Virus record (IMG/VR): IMGVR_UViG_3300017706_001873
Span: 1-25,621 of that record
Source of the DNA: a virus
Length of the DNA stretch: 25,621 nucleotides
Reading direction: 5' to 3' (one strand)
The stretch's first letter is position 1. Each line of letters begins with the position of its first letter. Of the stretch, positions 9,705-21,567 are shown in pieces. Under the pieces are notes generated by a model. It was not told where the DNA came from, searched no databases, and saw nothing but the letters and a program-made list of their open reading frames with translations. A program made the position numbers and the translations under genes.

Positions 9705-10154
9705 TTGAACAGACAAGCAATATATGAGCAACTTAAAATTGATGAAGGTGTAGAATATGAAATCTATCTCGACCACCTTGGGTACCCCACATTTGGTGTG
9801 GGCCATCTGGTGCTCAACACAGACCCAGAATCAGGACAGGAAGCAGGGACGCCAGTGTCAGAAAACAGAGTACAAGAGTGTTTCCAAAAAGACCTCGACA
9901 TCGCAATTTCTGAATGTCAGGAATTGTACGAGCCTGGAACATTTGACGGATTGCCTGGAGAAATCCAGGAAATATTGGTTAACATGATGTTCAACATGGG
10001 CAGAACCAGACTTAGTAAATTTAAAAAGATGCATGGTGCGATACTTGAGGCATCCTGGAAAACAGCTGCAATAGAAGGCAGAGATAGTTTATGGTATAAA
10101 CAGGTAACGAACAGAGCAGAAAGATTAATGGGACGTTTAGAAAATGTCAAATAA
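9705..10154 (+). CDS. T4-type lysozyme (GH24 endolysin)
   Basis: The 149-aa product resembles T4 gpe (164 aa) and the lysozyme domain of gp5. It should cut the beta-1,4 bond between N-acetylmuramic acid and N-acetylglucosamine. The catalytic triad E14, D23 and T29 is visible (IDEG, YLDHLGYPTFGVGH) with the same spacing as T4 E11/D20/T26. The C-terminal SLWYKQVTNRAERLM matches the T4 WYNQTPNRAKR block. The start is TTG at 9705, seven bases after AGAGGA and three bases past the gp14 stop. No signal peptide is seen, so export would need a holin or release at lysis. Its place between gp14 and gp15 could instead mean a virion-associated lysozyme. Confidence 0.92.
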   Translation: MNRQAIYEQLKIDEGVEYEIYLDHLGYPTFGVGHLVLNTDPESGQEAGTPVSENRVQECFQKDLDIAISECQELYEPGTFDGLPGEIQEILVNMMFNMGRTRLSKFKKMHGAILEASWKTAAIEGRDSLWYKQVTNRAERLMGRLENVK

Positions 10155-10323: not shown

Positions 10324-10399
10324 GCGTTCGATTGACTGTGGCAAACCCAAAGGCTTTAGTCAAAAGGCTCACTGTGCTGGACAGAAAAAGAGAAAATAA
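10277..10399 (+). CDS. 40-aa basic Cys/His mini-protein
   Basis: ATG 10277 opens a 40-residue frame, MKIAEIVTKKW...KRSIDCGKPKGFSQKAHCAG..., ending in a Lys/Arg tail. The SIDC-x-x-PKGFSQKAHC block resembles a short motif I recall from many marine T4-like phage proteins, with two Cys and one His that could bind metal or nucleic acid. An in-frame ATG at 10265 is an alternative start; AGAGGA at 10260-10265 favours 10277. Its TAA overlaps the gp15 ATG (TAATG), so it is translationally coupled to gp15. Function is unknown. Confidence 0.6.
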   Translation: MKIAEIVTKKWSNKYKRSIDCGKPKGFSQKAHCAGQKKRK

Positions 10400-11790
10400 T
10401 GGCGGGAAAATACAATAACATAGACGGCAAATCTGAAAATTTAGATTGGTGGTATGACAAGCAGATACGTAGGTATCTGATACAATTAATCAGAATTTTT
10501 AGTCATTTTCATGTCAGAGAGTACACTGACACCGGTGAAAATTACAATCGTGTTCCCTGTAGATATGCAGATAGTAGTCGTATGGTCACACACATCATGC
10601 GCAATAATTCAGAAAATATCATAAACTCTGCACCATTTATAAGTGTTTCAATACAAAATTTAAAGTATGATCAAAGCAGGACACAGGAACCTTTTAATGT
10701 AGACACAGTGCAGGTAGCAGAAAGAGAATATGACAGGGAGTCGAATACATATTTAAATGGACCCGGCAACTTATACACAGTAAACAGATACATGCCTGTG
10801 CCATATAATCTCACCATACAGGTTGATATTTGGTCTCCCAATACTGACACCAAGTTGCAAATCATGGAGCAGCTAATGGTTATATTTAACCCTAGCATAC
10901 AAATTCAAAGCACTAATAATCCTCTGGACTGGAGTAGCATATTTGAAGTAACTCTCACTGACGTTAATTGGAGCAATAGATCTATACCTCAGGGAGTGGA
11001 TGAAATCATAGACATTTCCACCATGACTTTCGAAGTTCCCATATGGATTAATCCTCCAGCACAAGTAAAGAGACAACAGATAATTCAAACAATTGTGACA
11101 AATGTATTTTCTGACACCGACATCGATGATTATGGATTCGACAGCCAATTTTATGATTTCTTTAGAAGTGTATCTGAAACTCCTGAACAATTAATAATAA
11201 CTCCCAATGATTATAGATTAAGAATAGAAGCTAGTGAAGCTCAACTTTTAAATTTAGATTATTCTCCTGCTACATGGAGCGACTTATTGGAAATACAAGG
11301 CGGTCTGTTGACAGATACTAGTTTGCTAAAAATTAACACCAGTGATGATTTGGATAATGAGGTAGCAATGATAGTAGGCGGTGTTAAGGAACATCCTTTT
11401 GACCCTAGTAAATTAATATGGAACATAGCTGCAGATACGTTGCCTTCCAATACACTGCCTTCCATAGATAGAATCGTAAATCCAGATGATGCTGCACCTG
11501 ATGATGGCTTGCCCTCTGCACAAATAGGACAAAGATACTTAATTACATCAGACACTCCCTGGTCAGGGAGCGACTATTGGGGCATTAATAACGTCAAGGC
11601 AAATGCAAATGATATCATTGAATACTCCGCGCAAGGAGAATGGATTATATCATTTAACAGTTCTGAATCTCCACAAACGCAAGTTTTAACCAATAACTAT
11701 ACTAACAAGCAGTTAAAATGGGATGGTGAAAAATGGTTCAGTTCATATGAGGGAGTCTACAACGGCGGTTTCTGGAGGCTCTTCCCCTAA
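10399..11790 (+). CDS. 15: Tail completion and sheath stabiliser gp15-like
   Basis: At 463 aa it exceeds T4 gp15 (272 aa), the hexamer that caps the tail end and joins it to the neck. The first 245 residues follow the gp15 pattern. YDKQIRRYLIQLIRIFSHFHV near 19-39 corresponds to YNSSFRRYATLMGDLFSNIQI. RVPCRYADSSRM near 51-62, RYMPVPYNLTIQVDIWS near 130-146, QIMEQLMVIFNP and STMTFEVPIWINPP also match in order. Residues about 250-463 are an extension with fibre-like aromatic repeats (GQRYLIT, LKWDGEKWF, GGFWRLF). It starts in TAATG overlap with the 40-aa gene and overlaps the following Nudix gene. The assignment is firm for the N-terminal half. Confidence 0.85.
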   Translation: MAGKYNNIDGKSENLDWWYDKQIRRYLIQLIRIFSHFHVREYTDTGENYNRVPCRYADSSRMVTHIMRNNSENIINSAPFISVSIQNLKYDQSRTQEPFNVDTVQVAEREYDRESNTYLNGPGNLYTVNRYMPVPYNLTIQVDIWSPNTDTKLQIMEQLMVIFNPSIQIQSTNNPLDWSSIFEVTLTDVNWSNRSIPQGVDEIIDISTMTFEVPIWINPPAQVKRQQIIQTIVTNVFSDTDIDDYGFDSQFYDFFRSVSETPEQLIITPNDYRLRIEASEAQLLNLDYSPATWSDLLEIQGGLLTDTSLLKINTSDDLDNEVAMIVGGVKEHPFDPSKLIWNIAADTLPSNTLPSIDRIVNPDDAAPDDGLPSAQIGQRYLITSDTPWSGSDYWGINNVKANANDIIEYSAQGEWIISFNSSESPQTQVLTNNYTNKQLKWDGEKWFSSYEGVYNGGFWRLFP

Positions 11791-12217
11791 CAAAATTACT
11801 GCCGCAGGGGTAGTATTTCTTGCACGTGATACTGGCAGATGTCTACTACAACTAAGAAATTCAGAAAAACGATTTAAACACACCTGGGGTTTTTGGGGAG
11901 GCATGACTGAAGGTAGCGAAACTCCATATGAATGTATTAGGCGTGAGTTAATGGAGGAAATAGGCATCGTGCCTGAACTAACTAAATTAAATCCCATTGA
12001 CGTGTACCAAAGTCAAAATAAAAAGTTTTATTATTATAGCTTCGTATATGTCACAGAAACAGAATTCATGCCAGTTCTTAACACAGAAAGTGCAGGATAT
12101 AGTTGGGTAAACATTGGCATATGGCCTAAGCCATTACATCAAGGTACTTTTTCTACCTTGGAAAAAAACGGTGGTACAGAAAAACTAAAACGTATACTGG
12201 AAATTGCTAGGGCCTGA
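11747..12217 (+). CDS. Nudix hydrolase
   Basis: The Nudix box G-x5-E-x7-R-E-L-x-E-E-x-G-I is complete within GGMTEGSETPYECIRREL and MEEIGI. The protein should hydrolyse a nucleoside diphosphate linked to another group, with a metal held by the REXXEE glutamates. The substrate (dNTP, NAD, capped RNA or nucleotide sugar) is not readable. The start is uncertain. ATG 11747 gives 156 aa and ATG 11723 gives 164 aa, both within the end of gp15. Neither has a good ribosome site, so it may depend on coupling to gp15. The 3' end overlaps the convergent sugar dehydrogenase by 11 bases. A link to sugar nucleotides is possible because of that neighbour, but it is speculative. Confidence 0.85.
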   Translation: MRESTTAVSGGSSPNKITAAGVVFLARDTGRCLLQLRNSEKRFKHTWGFWGGMTEGSETPYECIRRELMEEIGIVPELTKLNPIDVYQSQNKKFYYYSFVYVTETEFMPVLNTESAGYSWVNIGIWPKPLHQGTFSTLEKNGGTEKLKRILEIARA

Positions 12218-13010
12218 ACTTTTTATTTTTATTTACTGCATTTTCCAGTACACTCATATCTACACCCAACTTATTTGCATAATACAGCAGCGCAGCCGTA
12301 TCCTTGGGGAAACAATGGCCCCCGAATCCCAATTGAGCGTCAGGTCCAGGAACTTGCATATGAGTATTGCCTATCCTTGGATCTCTGGTCAGCATATCCA
12401 GGAAATCCTCCCAGGGAACCTCAGTTTTGCTCTGGGTGTGTAAGTCATGTAATTCATTGAAGAAAACAACTTTAGTAGCTAACCAGCTATTGATAGTGTA
12501 TTTGAGCAAACTTGCAGTTATAAAGTCAGTCTTAAAGGTTGGTACTACTCTGACTTTACTATTGATAACATAGAGCCGTTCAACATATTCACAATCACTC
12601 CATTCCCCGCCCAGTATTTGCATGTTAGGATTTAAAAAATCAGCATTGGAATTTGCTTCAGTGAGAAATTCAGGATTATATACTAATCTTAAATTTCTAT
12701 TGTTTTTACTAAAGTTTGTCAGATGTTTGGGAGTAATTGTACTTTTTATAATTACTACACCTTTGAAATTAAGATTACTTAATTCTGAAACCACACTGTT
12801 TACTATACTAACATCAACATCACCGGACGTAGTTTCGGGGGTAGGAACACAAACAAACAATGCGTCTGCTTTAAAATTTTTAACACAAGTTTCAATACTA
12901 ACATCTGTGAGCAATGGATCTACTATGAGTTTTTGTACATCACGGTTAAACCCATTGGATACTGCGCTACCCACAAATCCATGGCCTATGATACCTAATT
13001 TTATTGTCAT
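12207..13010 (-). CDS. UDP-glucose/GDP-mannose dehydrogenase-like enzyme, short form
   Basis: The 267-aa product has the NAD-binding Rossmann motif GIIGHGFVGSAV (residues 6-17), CVPTP near 54-58 and NPEFLTE (112-118). K170 and N174 lie in the central helix, and the catalytic cysteine C233 is in GFGGHCFPKDT. The family oxidises the C6 of UDP-glucose or GDP-mannose to the uronic acid in two NAD-dependent steps. Full enzymes have about 400-450 residues. This one stops about 34 residues after the catalytic Cys, so the C-terminal nucleotide-sugar-binding domain is missing. It either uses another substrate-binding arrangement or is degraded, but all visible catalytic residues are kept. It starts at ATG 13010, and no strong ribosome site is visible. 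Confidence 0.85.
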   Translation of the reverse strand: MTIKLGIIGHGFVGSAVSNGFNRDVQKLIVDPLLTDVSIETCVKNFKADALFVCVPTPETTSGDVDVSIVNSVVSELSNLNFKGVVIIKSTITPKHLTNFSKNNRNLRLVYNPEFLTEANSNADFLNPNMQILGGEWSDCEYVERLYVINSKVRVVPTFKTDFITASLLKYTINSWLATKVVFFNELHDLHTQSKTEVPWEDFLDMLTRDPRIGNTHMQVPGPDAQLGFGGHCFPKDTAALLYYANKLGVDMSVLENAVNKNKKFRP

Positions 13011-13014
13011 ATGT

Positions 13015-13356
13015 TTACTTACTTGTCTTTCTGTCTACACCGTACCAATCTGGTCCTGGCTCTGGTTGATTCAATCTGTGATCATATAGATCTGTTAGCA
13101 CATTATTATATTTTCTTAAATGCCTAAGGTTTTGTTTACTAACACTCCTGGACGAATTCTGGTAAGCATGTGTAACATTATTGATCGCTAAAGCATAGTC
13201 TACACTAACCAGGGTATATATGTCAACCGAGCTGTTTGTCCCTTGACTGATATACGATCAATAAAGGCAAGTACCTCCTAGTGATAGGGATATATTCCGT
13301 GGACAATGGCTACGTTTAAGCTTATAGAAACATCCACTAGTAATTGTTATTTTCAT
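13015..13356 (-). pseudogene. Possible TGA-interrupted small gene (113 codons)
   Basis: This 450-base interval (13011-13459) has no conventional gene. In one minus-strand frame, ATG 13356 opens 32 codons to a TGA at 13260-13258. The same frame then continues 80 more codons to TAA at 13017-13015. The second part reads like protein, with SVSKQNLRHLRKYNN near the middle and the end QPEPGPDWYGVDRKTSK, but it has no ATG, GTG or TTG near its beginning (only a late GTG). The frame may be a decayed gene, a recoded one or chance. AGGAGG lies at 13279-13274 without a well-spaced start. A 13-14 base near-repeat (TGGACAATGGCTA at 13300-13312, TGGACAAATGGCTA at 13390-13403) is also present. No tRNA or terminator was seen. 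Confidence 0.3.
13197..13228 (-). promoter_or_regulatory. Probable host-sigma promoter upstream of sugar dehydrogenase
   Basis: The minus strand shows TTGACA (13226-13221), an 18-base spacer and TAGACT (13202-13197). The block GGTTGACATATATAC is identical to the one before dNMP kinase. It would transcribe the candidate small frame and then the dehydrogenase. Confidence 0.45.
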
Positions 13357-13459: not shown

Positions 13460-13924
13460 CTACTCCGCATCATTAAGTGGATTCTCTAATATCTCTTTCA
13501 TACGATCTTCAAGCTCTTTTCTCATAGTTCTCATGTCAGTATCAAACTCTTTGAAACGCTGTTGCATTTCCTTTTCCATTTCATAAACATCATCACGAAC
13601 TTCTCGTTGGGATTGCGTTGATTCGTTTTCAACTTCCCTGGCTAGTCGTACAGCTTCCTGTATATCTTTACCCAGTTCGTCTTTAATAATTATCGTGAGA
13701 TCCTGAAGATTTTTTAACTCAATCTCACTTGTTTCTTTAAAAAGTGTAATCTGATTAATTATTTGATCAGGATTTAATTGTTCTAGTTTAGCTTCTGCTT
13801 CAAGGAGTCTATTGTAGAGTTCAAAGCCTCCCCATAGCCCTCCCATTAAAGTTCCTACTAATGGAAGTAATAGTAAAAGTTTGGACCCACCAATCTTTAC
13901 ACCGTTGTATTCTACTTCTGCCAT
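13460..13924 (-). CDS. Membrane-anchored coiled-coil protein (154 aa)
   Basis: One hydrophobic segment, KLLLLLPLVGTLMGGLWGGF (about residues 15-34), is followed by about 115 residues of charged heptad-like coiled coil rich in Glu, Lys and Arg (QREVRDDVYEMEKEMQQRF, MRTMRKELEDRMKEIL). There is no cleavable signal peptide. The likely topology is a single membrane helix with the coiled coil on one side. It starts one base after the nidogen-like gene stops and is the last gene of the five-gene membrane/secreted cluster. It could be a spanin-like, scaffold or exclusion protein, but no family was recognised firmly. Confidence 0.78.
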   Translation of the reverse strand: MAEVEYNGVKIGGSKLLLLLPLVGTLMGGLWGGFELYNRLLEAEAKLEQLNPDQIINQITLFKETSEIELKNLQDLTIIIKDELGKDIQEAVRLAREVENESTQSQREVRDDVYEMEKEMQQRFKEFDTDMRTMRKELEDRMKEILENPLNDAE

Positions 13925-13925
13925 T

Positions 13926-16823
13926 TTATTGCTCCTTTTTATATTGTGCGTTAATCATTTTCTGTAACTTGTTTTGCGTGTTACCTGCCATCATATAAAA
14001 TCCATATTTGTTATCATCTATTTTAGCATCGGGTATTTGAGACTCAGGACCATATCCTGGCGCGTCTGTCAATTGTGCCATCCCCGTGTACTGACTAAAC
14101 CCAGCAGTATACCCTATGTAAGCAACTGCAATTGTCTGATCTCCGTATTCACCGTCATCACCAGACTGTACTGCTTCTAACTGTTCTGCTAGATTACTAG
14201 CTGCAACCTCTGCTCCTAATGAATCTGCCAAACTCTCTACTGCACTTCCCACTCTCTGTTCTTGCATTGTAGGAGGAGCTATTTCAAATCTACCATAGTC
14301 AGGTGTTTGCTGACTAAGGAAATCTGAAATACCTGTTCCTGAGGCTATAGCATCATTAAAACCTGTTTCAAAGTTTTGATCTTGTCCGGATATGCCTTGT
14401 CCATCATCAAAACTCTGTATAAAGTCTTGTGTTTGACCGCCACCCGATTGTGTTTGATCTTGTGCTACATCAAACGCTGATGTACTAGCTCCTGTGTCTA
14501 TTGTTGTAACTGCCTGTACTGATGTTTGTCCCATTGACTGTTCTTGTTGTTCTTGTATTGTAGAGTCACCTGTTGTACTCTCTTGGGCTATATAACCGCC
14601 CAAATTGTTACTGCTACCATCTGATGATTGCATTTGTTGTCCACCATCGTTAAATGAATTTCCTGTGCTACCTGATGAACCACTATCTTGTATAATGTCT
14701 TGAACAACACTTACTGTTGCACTATCCCCACCAAAGTCTGCTTTACCGATAGCTGCTGAGATTGATATGGATGCTGATGATACTGCAGCTAAACTACCGC
14801 CACCTTTTTGTCTACGACTTCGGGTGTCACGACTTGGCTCTTCTCTAATTTGTTGTTCTTCTCTAACTTCTTCCCTTGCCTCTTCTTCTCTAAGTTCCTC
14901 TGCAGATTCCTCTTCTTGGAAAAACTCCTCTTCCATTTCAGGCATTAAAAGTTCTTCTAACTCTTCTTCACTAATTAATTCTTGGAACGCTTCATCGTCG
15001 ATTAGATCTTCAATTCTTTCTTCTCCAACTTCCTCAATAAACTCTTCAAATATTTCTTCTTCCTGTTCTTCTAATGCTTCACGCTCGAAGTCTTCTAAGT
15101 ATTCATCTTCAGGTCTGTCTTCTTCAAAGTCTTCTGGGTTAAAATCTTCTTCTCCACATGTAGGGCAATCTCTTAAATCGCCTGGGATGGCAATTAGATA
15201 TTCTAAGTCCTCATTATCTAAGTGGCTGTGATACATTAAGTCATCTGCTACTTGAGGATCTAAAGCATAGTCATATGTTTCCCAAACCATTTCCCCTTCT
15301 TCACTAAATTCTACCTCTGCTCCATACCATTCGTCCACTTGTTCTTGTCCAAACTCTCGAACGTCTATATCATACCACTCTTCCATGGTAAAATCTTCAT
15401 AGCCCTCCCCGAAGTGTTCTATGTTTTGATCGTGTTCTACTTCTGCCCAGGTCTCGTCTAATTCGCCTGTTAACATTAAAGTGGCCATGTCCTCATACTC
15501 TTCTTCAATATGGGTACCCATATGGTCTGTGCCGTTCCATTGGATACTAGGATCTAAGCCTAACGCAGCTATATCATCTTGACCCATTGTTATAAGTACT
15601 GCATCCTGTATACTCATACCTGAATCTACTAGCATTTGTTGTTCGCCGTTTAACTGATCGTATTGTAGAGAGTCGTCTTCTCTGGGATCGTATCCGCATG
15701 CACCACAATCATTTCCGTCTGCAAACCCTTGTTGGTTTTCTCTGTCCTGGTCAGTATAACCATATTCATCACCCTGCATGGACATCATATCGTCCCACAT
15801 TGCTTGTTCTTCCTCTTCTATACGCTGGAGTTCTGCATAGTAACCTGGACATGTAGAACTAAACAAAGGATCTCTATCACACTCTGAGTCTGCATATGCC
15901 TCAGCGAAACCTCCACATTGTGGGGAATACAATGGATCGTTTTGGCATTCTAAAAATAATTGTTGAGCTGCGTATGCGTCATCGTATCCTGGACAGTTTG
16001 ATGAAGATAAAGGATCAACTTCACATGAATTGTCTTGAGTATCTGAGTATATAACCTTGCCTGTTGTCCAGCCAGTGCCGATGTTAGCTCCTTCTATGTT
16101 TCCATTAGCGTTATCGTAACTATCAAAGGTTGTATGTCCGCCTGTGTTGTCATCGTAATATAAAAATGTTTTATGTTCGCCGTCGGAACCTTTACCTTGT
16201 TCACCGATTAACACATCATGATTTTTAATATCTAATTCTCCATACAACATACCAAAGGTATTGTCATCACGGATTATAAGCTCGAAACTATTACTAGAAG
16301 GTCTGTTGTACTCCCTCATAAAGTACCAACCATATACAACATAGTCTCCAAAGTTTTGATAAGCCATCTTAGATGATCTTGTTGTACCGTCGTCTAATGT
16401 TGCAATACCTAGAATAAGGTCTGTCCAAAAAGGATACAATGTGTAGTCTCTGTAAGGAAGTGGTTGTGGTGTGTAATCATTACATTGTGCTGAAGGTGCA
16501 CCACCGGTTGATTTAATTAAGTTAAGACATCCATTGGTATTTTGTCTACCACCATCAAATGTTTCGCCCCACCTAGTAAAGTCAAACCCCCAATGAGTTT
16601 CTGCACATCTACCATCGTCAGATCCGCTGCAATTTGTACCTGAATTATAAATGTTGAATAGTGGTATATTACCAACACCAGGACCGCCGGCTTCTGATCC
16701 GTCTGCTATAGACCAATCATTTCCTGTACCATCATAAGTAGAGGCACCATCAGCATTTCCCACAAAGGCAACACATAGGTAAGCCACAAATATTAGTTTG
16801 CTGAAGAAGTTAGTAATTTCCAT
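13926..16823 (-). CDS. Secreted nidogen-like protein with Cys repeats and acidic region (965 aa)
   Basis: A signal peptide covers about residues 1-26 (hydrophobic KLIFVAYLCVAFVG, then ADGA). Residues about 45-235 resemble a nidogen (NIDO) extracellular domain: LFNIYN, YPFWTDLILG, NSFELIIRDDNTFGMLYGEL and DVLIGEQG. Three repeats C-x-x-DPL-x-S-x-x-C-P/G-G-Y/F follow at 267-328. Then come a Gln/Asp-rich stretch, a very acidic Glu-rich segment (about 555-660) and a Ser/Gln/Gly-rich segment. The conserved-looking C-terminus has YIGYTAGFSQYTGM and ends near QKMINAQYKKEQ. NIDO domains mediate extracellular adhesion in animals and also occur in bacteria and phages. The first 31 bases overlap the end of the Asn/Thr-repeat gene. 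It may be an exported or surface protein rather than a capsid part. Confidence 0.83.
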   Translation of the reverse strand: MEITNFFSKLIFVAYLCVAFVGNADGASTYDGTGNDWSIADGSEAGGPGVGNIPLFNIYNSGTNCSGSDDGRCAETHWGFDFTRWGETFDGGRQNTNGCLNLIKSTGGAPSAQCNDYTPQPLPYRDYTLYPFWTDLILGIATLDDGTTRSSKMAYQNFGDYVVYGWYFMREYNRPSSNSFELIIRDDNTFGMLYGELDIKNHDVLIGEQGKGSDGEHKTFLYYDDNTGGHTTFDSYDNANGNIEGANIGTGWTTGKVIYSDTQDNSCEVDPLSSSNCPGYDDAYAAQQLFLECQNDPLYSPQCGGFAEAYADSECDRDPLFSSTCPGYYAELQRIEEEEQAMWDDMMSMQGDEYGYTDQDRENQQGFADGNDCGACGYDPREDDSLQYDQLNGEQQMLVDSGMSIQDAVLITMGQDDIAALGLDPSIQWNGTDHMGTHIEEEYEDMATLMLTGELDETWAEVEHDQNIEHFGEGYEDFTMEEWYDIDVREFGQEQVDEWYGAEVEFSEEGEMVWETYDYALDPQVADDLMYHSHLDNEDLEYLIAIPGDLRDCPTCGEEDFNPEDFEEDRPEDEYLEDFEREALEEQEEEIFEEFIEEVGEERIEDLIDDEAFQELISEEELEELLMPEMEEEFFQEEESAEELREEEAREEVREEQQIREEPSRDTRSRRQKGGGSLAAVSSASISISAAIGKADFGGDSATVSVVQDIIQDSGSSGSTGNSFNDGGQQMQSSDGSSNNLGGYIAQESTTGDSTIQEQQEQSMGQTSVQAVTTIDTGASTSAFDVAQDQTQSGGGQTQDFIQSFDDGQGISGQDQNFETGFNDAIASGTGISDFLSQQTPDYGRFEIAPPTMQEQRVGSAVESLADSLGAEVAASNLAEQLEAVQSGDDGEYGDQTIAVAYIGYTAGFSQYTGMAQLTDAPGYGPESQIPDAKIDDNKYGFYMMAGNTQNKLQKMINAQYKKEQ

Positions 16824-18133
16824 TCTGTTTTACAAGTAGTCCCTGATTTTCTAATACCTTTATGTTTGCCTGCGGTGTGGTCTGTCTTTTTGCAGGCCTT
16901 AATCCAATCTGTTTTTTTATTCTTTTCATCTTTGCTGGCTAATATTACTTTTAAAGCAACCTGCTCTTCTCGCCTTTCCATCTTCTGTTGATACTCTTTA
17001 AAGTCCGGTCTTTCATGAGCATTTTCGTCCCACTTAGCTGCGGCTTCTTGGCCTATGGCTCCTTCATATGGACAAGGAGTGCCTGCCATTTCCATTGCTT
17101 GAAATACTCGTTTGTCCTGGCACATTAATGAAACTGCTGCCACTTTCATTCCCATATCATATACGGTTTTAGAAAGTTTAATTCTTTCACAATTTAAATC
17201 GTTAACTGATCTACCACCTGATATACCAAATATCTGTCCTTGGAAAGCACCACTTACGCCTGTTGTACATAAGTCCTGCGAAAACGATGCCCCTATACTG
17301 GGTGCTATAGCACTAGCTGGAGGACTCTTAATTTCTTGTTTAATGTTCTGTGTCGTTTCGTTTATGTTTTTGTTGGTGTTATTATTGGTGTTGTTACTGG
17401 TATTTGTATTGTTTGTTTTAACATTACTATCACTAGTACTTTCGTTTTTGTTAATATTCTCGTTTTTATTATCAGAAGTCGTATTGTTGTTATTATTATT
17501 GGTATTGTTAGACGTGCTATTTACAGTTTGATCTACCGTAGAGTTATTTGTGTTCGTATTATTAGCAGTACTGTTGACAGTTGAATTATTTGTGTTTGTA
17601 TTATTAGAAGTAGAGTTATTCGTGTTGTTATTGGTATTAGTGCTAGTATTCGTGTTCGTATTGTTATTGGTATTTGTGTTGTTACTAGTCGATGTGCTAG
17701 TATTGTTATTTGTGTTATTATTGGTGTTCGTATTATTATTTGTGTTGTTAGAGGTATTGATGTTAGTATTTGTGTTGGTATTTGTGTTGGTATTGGTTGA
17801 AGTATTAGTATTTGTATTTACGTTGGTACTAGTGTTAGTATTCGTATTAGTGTTATTGCTAGTATTTGTGTTCGTGTTCGTATTAACCGAAGTATTATTA
17901 TTTGTATTGGTTGAAGTATTAGTATTCGTCGACGTATTTGTATTCGCGTTCGTGTTCGTATTGTTGTTAGTATTAGTTGCTGTTGAGGTAGTCGTCGTTG
18001 TAGTAGTCGTAGTATTATCTACTGACTCACAATATTGAGTACCTTGAGTACAATCACCTGTTTGGTCTGCATGTACATTAATTGATAGGACTAAAATACT
18101 CATAGCTCCCAGAGCAAAAATAATTTTCTTCAT
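16793..18133 (-). CDS. Secreted Asn/Thr-repeat protein with conserved C-terminal domain (446 aa)
   Basis: A clear signal peptide (MKKIIFALGAMSILVLSINVHA, quoted here as MKKIIFALGAMSIL plus VLSINVHA) ends near residue 22. Two cysteines follow. Residues about 41-255 consist almost only of Asn, Thr and Ser in TN, NNT and TNTN units. The C-terminal domain (about 265-446) is ordinary sequence: SPPASAIAPSIGASF, then NDLNCERIKLSKTVYDMGMK, then CQDKRVFQAMEMAGTPCPYEG, with Cys residues that could pair after export. I recall related C-terminal domains in marine phage proteins, without known function. The Asn/Thr tract probably forms an extended, possibly glycosylated stalk. The gene precedes and overlaps the nidogen-like gene. 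Confidence 0.82.
   Translation of the reverse strand: MKKIIFALGAMSILVLSINVHADQTGDCTQGTQYCESVDNTTTTTTTTTSTATNTNNNTNTNANTNTSTNTNTSTNTNNNTSVNTNTNTNTSNNTNTNTNTSTNVNTNTNTSTNTNTNTNTNTNINTSNNTNNNTNTNNNTNNNTSTSTSNNTNTNNNTNTNTSTNTNNNTNNSTSNNTNTNNSTVNSTANNTNTNNSTVDQTVNSTSNNTNNNNNNTTSDNKNENINKNESTSDSNVKTNNTNTSNNTNNNTNKNINETTQNIKQEIKSPPASAIAPSIGASFSQDLCTTGVSGAFQGQIFGISGGRSVNDLNCERIKLSKTVYDMGMKVAAVSLMCQDKRVFQAMEMAGTPCPYEGAIGQEAAAKWDENAHERPDFKEYQQKMERREEQVALKVILASKDEKNKKTDWIKACKKTDHTAGKHKGIRKSGTTCKTEWKLLTSSAN
17360..18014. repeat. Low-complexity Asn/Thr-coding repeat tract
   Basis: The minus strand is an imperfect run of AAT, AAC, ACT and ACN codons, roughly six-base units, encoding (TN)n with interspersed Ser. 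Synonymous codons vary along the run. The tract is therefore not a fresh slippage product, and selection on the protein is plausible. The opposite strand is open only because of this composition. Confidence 0.85.
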
Positions 18134-18211
18134 CAGTCTTTTCCCATGTTAACGAAGTTTAGTAACTTCTGTTTTTTGCTACGCTTTACTACATTTGGAT
18201 GTTGAGTATTA

Positions 18212-18499
18212 CTACTCGTTATTACTAATAGTAATATCGTCCAAACTACGCTTGACGTGCTCTGCCTCCCTGATCTCTATTACTGTATCCAACTTCTGTT
18301 GCAATCTGATGTTATCATTATCCAACATACGAATTTTTTCCATAAGCCTTAGGCTTGTGCTATGTATTTCTTCTATGAGTGGTTCTATTTGTTCTGTTAT
18401 AAATTTCCAAATAAAGTAAACCAGATATAGCAATAATCCACTACTAACAATAGGAAAACCATAATCGGAAATTGCAATTGCAACAGTTTGAGGATCCAT
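18212..18499 (-). CDS. YvrJ/holin-like small membrane protein B (95 aa)
   Basis: The N-terminus MDPQTVAIAISDYGFPIVSS is followed by a hydrophobic helix (GLLLYLVYFIWKFI, residues 21-34) and a charged coiled coil (about 40-80). The D/E-x-GFPIV motif before the helix is shared with the upstream 93-aa gene and is like the YvrJ family and BhlA/UviB-type holin-like proteins. The ATG overlaps the upstream stop by one base (TAATG). It is probably an inner-membrane protein. Whether it is a holin, a membrane sensor or a partner of the downstream coiled-coil protein is open. Confidence 0.78.
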   Translation of the reverse strand: MDPQTVAIAISDYGFPIVSSGLLLYLVYFIWKFITEQIEPLIEEIHSTSLRLMEKIRMLDNDNIRLQQKLDTVIEIREAEHVKRSLDDITISNNE

Positions 18500-18780
18500 T
18501 AATCATTCCTCGCATCGTCTTTGCCCTTGGCTCTGGCAACACGATCTATGTCCGGTCTAATACCCAATACATTGCACACTGTGACATCAATTCTTATGGT
18601 GTCATTGTTCATGGTGCTCACGCGATTTTCCATACCCTTAAGTATGTTATTGAGAAATTTAAGTTGATCCAGAATACCGTTAAGTATATGATTAACTGCG
18701 ACAAAGATAAAAACACCAGCTACTAAACTGATGACAATAGGGAATCCTAATTCGGCTATAATGCCTAATGCTTCTTCCAT
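18499..18780 (-). CDS. YvrJ/holin-like small membrane protein A (93 aa)
   Basis: MEEALGIIAELGFPIVISLV leads into a hydrophobic helix (about residues 12-29). A short amphipathic coiled region (ILDQLKFLNNILKGMENRV) and a basic Asp/Lys-rich tail follow. The same E-x-GFPIV motif as the next gene marks them as paralogues, diverged apart from motif and layout. It is the first gene of the leftward cluster, with AGGAGAG at 18788-18794 and a late-type promoter at 18837-18844. A holin role would fit late expression, but the lysozyme is far away at 9705. Confidence 0.78.
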   Translation of the reverse strand: MEEALGIIAELGFPIVISLVAGVFIFVAVNHILNGILDQLKFLNNILKGMENRVSTMNNDTIRIDVTVCNVLGIRPDIDRVARAKGKDDARND

Positions 18781-18836: not shown

Positions 18837-18844
18837 TATTTATG
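18837..18844 (-). promoter_or_regulatory. T4-type late promoter for the membrane/secreted cluster
   Basis: The minus strand reads CATAAATA, a variant of the GATAAATA octamer, about 57 bases upstream of the first cluster gene. No other promoter-like element is visible within the five-gene cluster. Confidence 0.45.
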
Positions 18845-18894: not shown

Positions 18895-21567
18895 ATGAAA
18901 TCTATTGCATTTATAGACGTTTTTGGCTTGCCGTATGACGGAGACACCCTTAACCGTAGAGGACTAGGCGGGTCGGAAAGTGCCGTAATCCAATTAAGCA
19001 GAGAATTAGCACTATTAGGCTATGACGTAAAGGTATTTAACGATTGCACCAGGGACGACTGTAAGCCTGGCGTATATCATGATGTAACATATATACCATT
19101 GTCGGAAATAATTAATTACACTCAAGGTTTTGATGTCATGATTTCCAGTCGTACAGTAGCACCTTTTGCACCCAATGCTATTAAAGAACGCTTTAAGACC
19201 TTTACTGTCATGCCTGACTTTGAACATGTTTCCAATGCTAGCAGATATCGCGTCCTATGGATGCATGATACTTTTTGTGATGGGGACGATTTGATCGAAG
19301 GCATGTGTCTGGATGGCTTGATACACAAAGTATTTACACTGAGTGATTTCCATACTACCTATGTCACAAACTGCGATCATGGCAAAAAAAGAAACTTTGA
19401 AGTCATGAAAAAATATATTTTTCAGACCAGAAATGCTATTACAAAATATGGTGATGATTGGGTGGATGTTACTACAAAGGATCCCAATCTGTTTGTTTTT
19501 AACAGTAGTGTTACAAAGGGCATGAGAAGTTTAGTTGAACGTATCTGGCCCAGAGTCAAAGAACAATTGCCAGAAGCAAAGTTGGCGATTCTGGGAGGGT
19601 ATTATAAATTTGGCGACAATGATGCCAAGGACGAACAACAACAAACATATGAAAATTTAAAATCACTTGCTGAAAATAATCCTGATTTAAACATACAATT
19701 TACTGGCATTGTTACACCACCAGAAGTTGCAATGTGGATGAGAAGATCCAGCTTTATGCTTTATCCCGGTGAATTTCCAGAAACTTATGGCATCAGTGTG
19801 CTGGAGGCTCTGAGCTATAATACTCCAGTTATATGTAACATTTTTGGTGCCTTGGAAGAGGTTGCCATAGATCAGGCATGCTGGAAGACTCCCTATGCTA
19901 TACAGGCAAATGGATTATTTCCCAACATCGTAGGTGCTGACCAGGAGGATAGATTTGTAAATTTGACTATTGAGGCCTATAATAATACATACTTGCATCA
20001 ACAAAAGCAATATGCATGCAACCAATTAGCAGGGATCAATACATGGGATACAGTAGCACTACAATGGAAACAACATTTCTGTGCAGCACTTAAATTTGAT
20101 TATCTATCCAAAGTTGAATATCAAAGCGTAAGTGACATTAATCAAAGGGTAAAGCATGTTTTTGGCACTAGATTTAGTAATCCCCACCATAACCCAGTTA
20201 TCAGAAAAAAACAACAACACATTGACGTTGTGGTGCCTTTCTATAACGCAACCAAATTTTTGCCGCTGTGTTTAAAAAGTATTTTTGCACAGGACTATGA
20301 CAATTATACAGTACATCTCATCAATGATGCAAGCACAGATAATCCACTGGAAACCATAGACGATATATTAAAAATACACCGACCTGACTGTAACTTAAAA
20401 GTATACGACAATAAAGAAAATCTAGGTGCAGTAAGAAATCAAGTGGAATTAATAAACAAACTTGATCCTGAAAACATAGTAATACTTGTTGATGGCGATG
20501 ATTGGCTTTATCCAGATTCAGAAATTTTCCAAAAGATAAACAATCTATATCACGCAGATTGTGAGTTTAGTTATGGGAGTTGTTGGAGTTTAGTGGACGG
20601 TATTCCCTTAATAGCCCAACCATACCCTCCAAACATACAGCAAAATAAACAATACAGATCTCATCGCTTTTCCTGGAACATGCCTTACACACACTTAAGA
20701 ACCTTCAGAGCACGTATGTTGCATATATACAAGGACACCACATATCAGGATGCCAATGGCAAATGGCTTAAAGCAGGTGGCGATACTGCCCTATTTTACG
20801 CTGCCTTAGAAGCAGCACATCCCGACAAAGTAGTTTGTGTTCCTGATCTATGGTACGTCTACAATGATGCTCATAGCGATAACGACTACAAAGTCAACGC
20901 AGAAGAACAAACAAGCAATGCAAACTATGTGCTTAATCATGGTGTAGACTGGCTGGACGATCCCAAAGTGTATGCCAGTGCTAAAAAACGAGTATTGATA
21001 GCTATACCCACCGCTAAAAACATTGAAGTTGATACCTTCAAAAGTATTTACGACCAAATAGTGGACGACAATATTGAGATAGATTTTCAATATTTTTATG
21101 GGTATCGCGTGGATCAAATCAGAAACTTAATTGCAGATTGGGTAATAAAAGGAAATTATGACTATCTGTTTAGTGTGGATAGTGACATTACATTTGACAA
21201 TGACGTGTTACAAAAATTTCTGGATCATGATTTGGATATTGTTAGTGGTATATACAGACAAAGAAAGGAAGATCAGATTTTGGAAATATATGCTGAACAT
21301 GGCGGGAATGTATCCTGGGAGGATATACAAAACAAGCAACTAATTAAAATAGGGGCATGTGGATTTGGGTGTGTTTTAGTAAAACGTAAAGTGTTTCAGT
21401 CTGTGGGGCAACCTGCATTTGAATACCATGTTGCATTAAATCACAAAAACACAATAAGCGAGGACTGGGATTTTTGTGCCAAGGCACGAGATAAGGGTTT
21501 CGAAGTCTGGGCAGACACAGATGTAGTTTGTGGCCACATTGGTAGCACTACATATAAAATCTCTTAA
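18895..21567 (+). CDS. Three-domain glycosyltransferase fusion (890 aa)
   Basis: Three domains follow each other. Residues 1 to about 400 are a GT-B fold of the GT4 type, with GLGGSESAVIQLSREL (23-38), a glycan-transferase strand LAILGGYY (230-237) and the EX7E motif E296...E304 in FPETYGISVLEA. Residues about 442-690 are a GT-A fold of the GT2 type, with IDVVVPFYNATKFLPLCLKS, NDASTD and the metal-binding DGDD at 533-536. Residues about 698-890 are another GT-A-like domain, with VLIAIPT at the start and DSD at 762-764. No signal peptide is seen, so action is cytoplasmic. Possible acceptors are virion proteins, modified DNA bases or host surface glycans. No ribosome site better than GTAGAAG precedes ATG 18895. 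Confidence 0.88.
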   Translation: MKSIAFIDVFGLPYDGDTLNRRGLGGSESAVIQLSRELALLGYDVKVFNDCTRDDCKPGVYHDVTYIPLSEIINYTQGFDVMISSRTVAPFAPNAIKERFKTFTVMPDFEHVSNASRYRVLWMHDTFCDGDDLIEGMCLDGLIHKVFTLSDFHTTYVTNCDHGKKRNFEVMKKYIFQTRNAITKYGDDWVDVTTKDPNLFVFNSSVTKGMRSLVERIWPRVKEQLPEAKLAILGGYYKFGDNDAKDEQQQTYENLKSLAENNPDLNIQFTGIVTPPEVAMWMRRSSFMLYPGEFPETYGISVLEALSYNTPVICNIFGALEEVAIDQACWKTPYAIQANGLFPNIVGADQEDRFVNLTIEAYNNTYLHQQKQYACNQLAGINTWDTVALQWKQHFCAALKFDYLSKVEYQSVSDINQRVKHVFGTRFSNPHHNPVIRKKQQHIDVVVPFYNATKFLPLCLKSIFAQDYDNYTVHLINDASTDNPLETIDDILKIHRPDCNLKVYDNKENLGAVRNQVELINKLDPENIVILVDGDDWLYPDSEIFQKINNLYHADCEFSYGSCWSLVDGIPLIAQPYPPNIQQNKQYRSHRFSWNMPYTHLRTFRARMLHIYKDTTYQDANGKWLKAGGDTALFYAALEAAHPDKVVCVPDLWYVYNDAHSDNDYKVNAEEQTSNANYVLNHGVDWLDDPKVYASAKKRVLIAIPTAKNIEVDTFKSIYDQIVDDNIEIDFQYFYGYRVDQIRNLIADWVIKGNYDYLFSVDSDITFDNDVLQKFLDHDLDIVSGIYRQRKEDQILEIYAEHGGNVSWEDIQNKQLIKIGACGFGCVLVKRKVFQSVGQPAFEYHVALNHKNTISEDWDFCAKARDKGFEVWADTDVVCGHIGSTTYKIS

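Follow-up and report, generated by a model that had tools for sequence, protein, structure and literature searches.

Curli (type VIII secretion) operons have been described in phage HTVC008M, in Melnitz phages and in pelagiphage clades, and the roles proposed for them include sibling capture, defence against superinfection, and a pore acting in lysis (PMC7029224, PMC9004378, PMC9599517). These operons are said always to be preceded by a 'histidine kinase, sometimes two' (PMC9599517). The window considered here is the whole of a 25,621-nucleotide viral record (IMG/VR, IMGVR_UViG_3300017706_001873), in which an earlier note, made from the sequence alone, had singled out five leftward genes, here called P1 to P5, as one cluster of envelope-directed proteins. 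All five open reading frames are present, with exactly the coordinates claimed for them, and a Pfam scan placed none of their products above a Pfam cut-off. The judgement that these are envelope-directed rather than ordinary T4 virion proteins appears to be right, as does the expectation of co-conserved genes among them. The single five-gene cassette, however, dissolves upon comparison with relatives, in which P1 and P2 travel with curli and P3 to P5 form a separate trio; each of these units stays together, and all five genes are found together only inside a curli superoperon.

The leader pair of phage curli operons

P1 (18499..18780, minus strand, 93 aa) and its paralogue P2 (18212..18499, minus strand, 95 aa) overlap at the P1 stop and P2 start. 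Each has a transmembrane helix containing the motif GFPIV, as had been noticed earlier, joined to a coil that is C-terminal in P1, and both match phrog_18771, a family with no assigned function (E 2e-24 and 1e-20). The late-type promoter that had been placed at the head of the cluster is also there: the T4-type element CATAAATA (18837..18844, minus strand) lies 64 bp upstream of P1, and in 51 of 59 distinct curli loci the 140 bp preceding P1 contain ATAAATA, compared with 3% of random 140-mers. Every phage curli locus with sufficient upstream sequence has P1 and P2 in tandem ahead of csgF-csgG (78/78 loci in which over 1.5 kb is available before csgG, taken from 80 further viral-contig CsgG loci and earlier ones, some of them overlapping copies of one contig). 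Among named phages, homologues of the pair are found only in HTVC008M and Melnitz phages, again directly upstream of csgF-csgG. P1 and P2 belong to the phage curli operon as its invariant first gene and its second gene.

Judged by position, the pair is probably the 'histidine kinase' of the published description (PMC9599517). The kinase assignment itself was rejected for proteins of 93–95 aa that consist of a transmembrane segment and a coil and match no kinase or phosphoacceptor domain. P1 and P2 resemble YvrJ and the small phage holins (PF12841, phrog_4898) in size and in a GFPIV-type N-terminal helix, although the scores are far under curated cut-offs or not significant; YvrJ was discarded at 13.7 bits for P1 and 10.9 bits for P2, against a Pfam cut-off of 29.5. 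Three curli loci (L092, L093 and L094) hold an extra 58-aa open reading frame between P1 and P2, which is missing in L095 and in the window. Towards the other end of jumbo curli operons, conserved small membrane proteins and a lipoprotein (SCASVGGAWNAGTEIVTGTVDSVVGG) sit between the second curlin gene and either P3 or the cyclase gene (L121 8284-9124, L132 11915-12775). The presence of curli operons in marine jumbo-type phage contigs (L110, L111 and L135, of 217, 340 and 250 kb, respectively) extends the published pelagiphage cases.

The curli locus of the window and its present content

In contrast to the published carriers of phage curli, the window probably comes from a jumbo-type myophage lineage. 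Its tail-sheath stabiliser (10399-11790) is nearest to those of jumbo phages Phosso, Atu_ph07 and PA5oct (287-490 kb), and the protein is carried at 52-57% identity by the curli contigs of 217, 250 and 340 kb, affinities that make the window a likely piece of a marine jumbo-type T4-like myophage. An endolysin gene (9705-10154, plus strand; Phage_lysozyme PF00959, E 3.4e-7) with a TTG start sits between the neck and tail-sheath-stabiliser genes. Surface-sugar genes stand on both flanks of the five-gene locus, namely a UDP-glucose dehydrogenase-like gene (12207..13010, minus strand), whose product is short and gives a match beginning midway through the NAD-binding domain, and a divergent gene (18895..21567, plus strand) for a multi-domain glycosyltransferase of 890 aa with group 1 and family 2 glycosyltransferase domains. 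Both flanking genes are common to curli-bearing relatives.

The closest of these relatives, L093, is collinear with the window through the tail-fibre end, the glycosyltransferase (93% identical), P1 (96%), P2 (84%) and the UDP-glucose dehydrogenase (90%), with a DNA identity in the flanks of 88-90%. Between P2 and the dehydrogenase, L093 carries csgF, csgG, a curlin repeat, FecR, another curlin repeat, and a CHASE2/adenylate cyclase; its curli genes are confirmed by Pfam, the first curlin-repeat protein remaining sub-threshold, and its cyclase has CHASE2 and Guanylate_cyc domains. In the window, P3, P4 and P5 are the sole genes between P2 and a remnant of the cyclase, and a Pfam scan found no curlin repeat or FecR in them; an HMM search of the 25.6-kb record did not find csgG, the curli secretion genes being represented by a start-less csgF remnant.

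The boundaries of this exchange can be placed closely. DNA homology to L093, in two blocks of 88% and 85%, continues beyond the csgF start (L093 3520-3818) and ends at window position 18203, about 55 bp into csgF, so that a scar of the csgF 5' end (18203..18258, minus strand) overlaps the end of P2, its start changed from ATG to ACG (CATGTCAAGC in L093, CACGTCAAGC in the window). Homology resumes (90%) at 13277, within the final ~85 codons of the cyclase gene, the stretch there having 91.8% DNA identity to L093 9575-9842; of the CHASE2/adenylate cyclase gene at the operon end the window keeps only this frameshifted 3' remnant (13011..13277, minus strand). Since the collinear relative holds curli at this point and remnants of csgF and of the cyclase persist, a curli operon once stood here and has been replaced. 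Comparison of the two sequences gives good support to a loss of the curli core (csgF-csgG-csgA/B-fecR-csgA/B, with the greater part of the cyclase gene) in favour of a horizontally acquired P3-P4-P5, with P1-P2, the late promoter and the decayed curli edges left behind. What the window has in common with a phage curli operon is thus its locus, leader pair, promoter, flanks and these two remnants, whereas P3 to P5 show no sequence relationship to curli proteins.

P3 and P4 of the window are closest to those of L013 (81% DNA identity) and its flanks to L093, so the acquired segment stems from a different lineage. In the P4 tree the window is sister to L013 (support 1.0) and falls outside the P4s tested from curli contigs, and this separation indicates that the trio probably reached its cyclase-adjacent spot more than once. 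A single metagenomic contig shows the replacement, and a second copy of the exact junction strings was not found elsewhere, as might be expected if the assembly had joined two phages into a chimera and the trio, though real, had never been at this locus. Such an origin is most improbable, given that a frameshifted cyclase remnant and a start-less csgF reflect decay and not a clean join, and that seven other contigs repeat the order of trio beside cyclase. Curli could lie elsewhere in the genome, of which the record is a 25.6-kb fragment.

The P3-P4-P5 trio and its distribution

P3 (16793..18133, minus strand, 446 aa) is composed of a signal peptide (residues ~1-22), an Asn/Thr/Ser repeat (39-267) and a conserved Cys-rich C-terminal domain (270-446), and matches phrog_20531. 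The signal peptides attributed to P3 and P4 in the earlier note, likewise recognised here by eye, are backed by the recurrence of signal-like N-termini in homologues. The Asn/Thr repeat, also pointed out there, is borne out by composition (99 N, 77 T and 24 S in 229 residues) and by a two-residue alternation reached in none of 2000 shuffles; this period-two pattern, together with the mixture of synonymous codons across the repeat, shows that the composition is selected at the protein level. Podophage P3 proteins have a short S/T/N linker. A search with the P3 domain yielded at least 324 IMG/VR viral contigs, and 13 P3-like matches lie in contigs assigned to MAGs of diverse bacterial and archaeal phyla (L190-L202), probably mis-binned phage contigs. 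AlphaFold models of the P3 C-terminal domain (pLDDT 70) and of P4 (mean pLDDT 55) are of low confidence, and a Foldseek fold search with them gave no usable solved match, while two BFVD matches were unnamed phage proteins.

The P4 gene (13926..16823, minus strand, 965 aa), whose reading frame overlaps that of P3 by 31 bp, encodes a signal peptide, a beta-rich nidogen/RemA-like domain (~60-225), a Cys-containing, acidic Glu-rich stalk, and a conserved helical C-terminal domain. The P4 family profile (4-172) matches the N-terminal residues 2-170 of RemA (PDB 8gl6, E 9.9e-8), which supports the earlier description of P4 as nidogen-like, whereas none of 31 P4 family members contains a NIDO domain at the Pfam gathering score. 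The likeness to RemA, a gliding adhesin of Flavobacterium johnsoniae, extends to this single N-terminal domain, and P4 comes without a T9SS and without lectin repeats. Podophage P4 proteins have a shorter body and a different, weakly CBM-like head, yet retain the C-terminal domain, implying that the binding head is exchangeable.

P5 (13460..13924, minus strand, 154 aa) is a membrane-anchored coiled coil, as proposed, with one N-terminal transmembrane helix followed by the coil and a C-terminal NPL. The terminal NP[LM] is present in 46/46 distinct complete P5 homologues and in 0.3% of other open reading frames. An N-terminal transmembrane segment and coil are also features of Rz/Rz1 spanins, and some trios adjoin real spanin genes; P5 differs in its conserved NPL tail, and the same phages encode separate spanins. 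An Rz-like i-spanin identity was rejected for P5, which matches no PHROG or Pfam spanin family, while true spanins in trio-bearing phages do match phrog_739/812. Two proteins annotated as lysozyme, CRP-207 gp73 (L184 3292-3873) and CRP-810 gp51 (L185 5165-5587), are P5 homologues with transmembrane segment, coil and NPL tail; they have no lysozyme domain and so provide no link to an endolysin. Two annotations therefore look wrong, this 'lysozyme' and the kinase assigned to the small proteins heading phage curli.

The three genes keep close company, P4 following directly upon P3 in 86 of 93 loci and P5 upon P4 in 46 of 49, counts that do not equal independent events since the IMG/VR loci are redundant in places. 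The trio has carriers among myophages, podophages and roseophages, as a rule in the absence of curli, and the isolates with it include the Pelagibacter phages HTVC202P, HTVC023P, HTVC033P, HTVC115P, Baldr and Mosig, and the Roseobacter phages CRP-207 and CRP-810; it was not found in HTVC019P. Isolate trios share with the window the gene order, the P3 domain and the transmembrane-coil-NPL layout of P5, although the middle gene in the CRP phages is not detectably homologous to P4 (weak, E 0.06). In HTVC115P, gp46 (L001 11249-11698), annotated as a toxin-activating lysine-acyltransferase, lies ~2 kb downstream of P5. Within one podophage group distribution is patchy, with P3 present in 6 of 29 informative HTVC023P-type contigs and absent from the other 23, and none showing curli near the capsid gene; G079 was ruled out as a member of this type.

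CsgG was detected in none of 26 P3-bearing records outside the curli contigs, and among the 37 records tested it occurs only in nine curli contigs, HTVC008M and Melnitz. Mutual exclusion of trio and curli was nevertheless ruled out, as 7 of 48 curli records hold both. Besides the window, P1-P2 and the trio occur together in only seven fetched contigs, with the whole curli core between the two units, and all seven have the same order: P1-P2, full curli, and P3-P4-P5 ~15 bp before the cyclase gene. No paper describing the trio was found in a literature search with incomplete coverage of journals, and P3-P5 is apparently an undescribed, portable and widely travelled phage module.

Possible functions of the trio

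The trio swaps with curli or joins it, is patchy in one podophage group and stands at a distance from lysis genes in most large myophage records, and for these reasons the evidence leans towards accessory surface remodelling, with superinfection control or an aid to lysis as alternatives. An accessory late module remodelling the envelope or surface, acting in the manner of phage curli, alongside it or in its place, is a plausible reading of these sequences, if a little short of probable. P3 and P4 would exit the cytoplasm by host Sec. P3 could then supply an extended Asn/Thr-rich stretch, possibly fibre- or amyloid-like to judge by its composition and alternation, and P4 an exchangeable ligand-binding head on an acidic stalk, nidogen/RemA-like here and CBM-like in podophages. 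P5 may use its coil and NPL tail to anchor or assemble both at the inner membrane; the trio itself encodes no outer-membrane channel. Infected cells would then adhere or aggregate ('sibling capture'), or their surface would be hidden from other phages.

A role as a lysis accessory, in which P5 is i-spanin-like or a holin partner and P3 and P4 serve at release by weakening or bridging the outer envelope, seems rather unlikely, even if it fits the published proposal of a curli pore timing lysis and the Rz-like layout of P5. Several gene neighbourhoods speak for it: podophage contigs L057, L061 and L085 embed the trio with endolysin and the spanins Rz and Rz1, Mosig has a GTA-type holin with three transmembrane segments directly upstream of P3, and HTVC023P a peptidase M15 directly downstream of the trio. 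These podophages, however, already encode spanins and endolysin, P5 matches no spanin family, P4 proteins, at up to ~1000 aa, do not resemble lysis proteins, and the trio is absent from most informative HTVC023P-type contigs. In most large myophage records the lysis genes are 8-43 kb away, which together with the carriers' own spanins makes a core lysis role unlikely and an auxiliary one possible; the patchiness, too, weakens the case for core lysis machinery.

Superinfection exclusion or receptor masking, with secreted P4 and P3 coating the cell or its debris and blocking adsorption of other phages or of progeny, is unlikely on balance. Export signals, exchangeable heads, a patchy accessory distribution and the adjoining surface-sugar genes (UGD and glycosyltransferase) would all suit it. 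The late-type promoter can be read both ways, being in keeping with such a system and yet late in timing for exclusion, and no similarity to receptor or exclusion proteins is seen. It is very unlikely that P3-P5 are virion or tail-associated proteins whose signal-like N-termini serve as membrane-insertion segments for entry: tail genes flank the region, and the S28-C10 trio lies between tail-fibre and terminase genes, but Sec-type N-termini are conserved in P3 and P4 across families, the trio is co-located with curli operons and lysis genes, and neither Pfam nor PHROG reveals similarity to virion families.

Returning to surface remodelling, a more specific and more tentative form of it would make the trio a second phage host-surface system that is interchangeable with curli and displaced it here, P1-P2 being a shared control or anchor for either cassette. 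Among phages, one cassette that alters the host surface seems to be exchanged for another. Why ocean phages carry curli is a puzzle in the literature, and the scarred replacement of the curli core by an unrelated secreted trio offers a handle on the purpose of the locus: the trio may have the same effect there as curli, whatever that is, and its presence in cultured phages opens it to deletion and testing.
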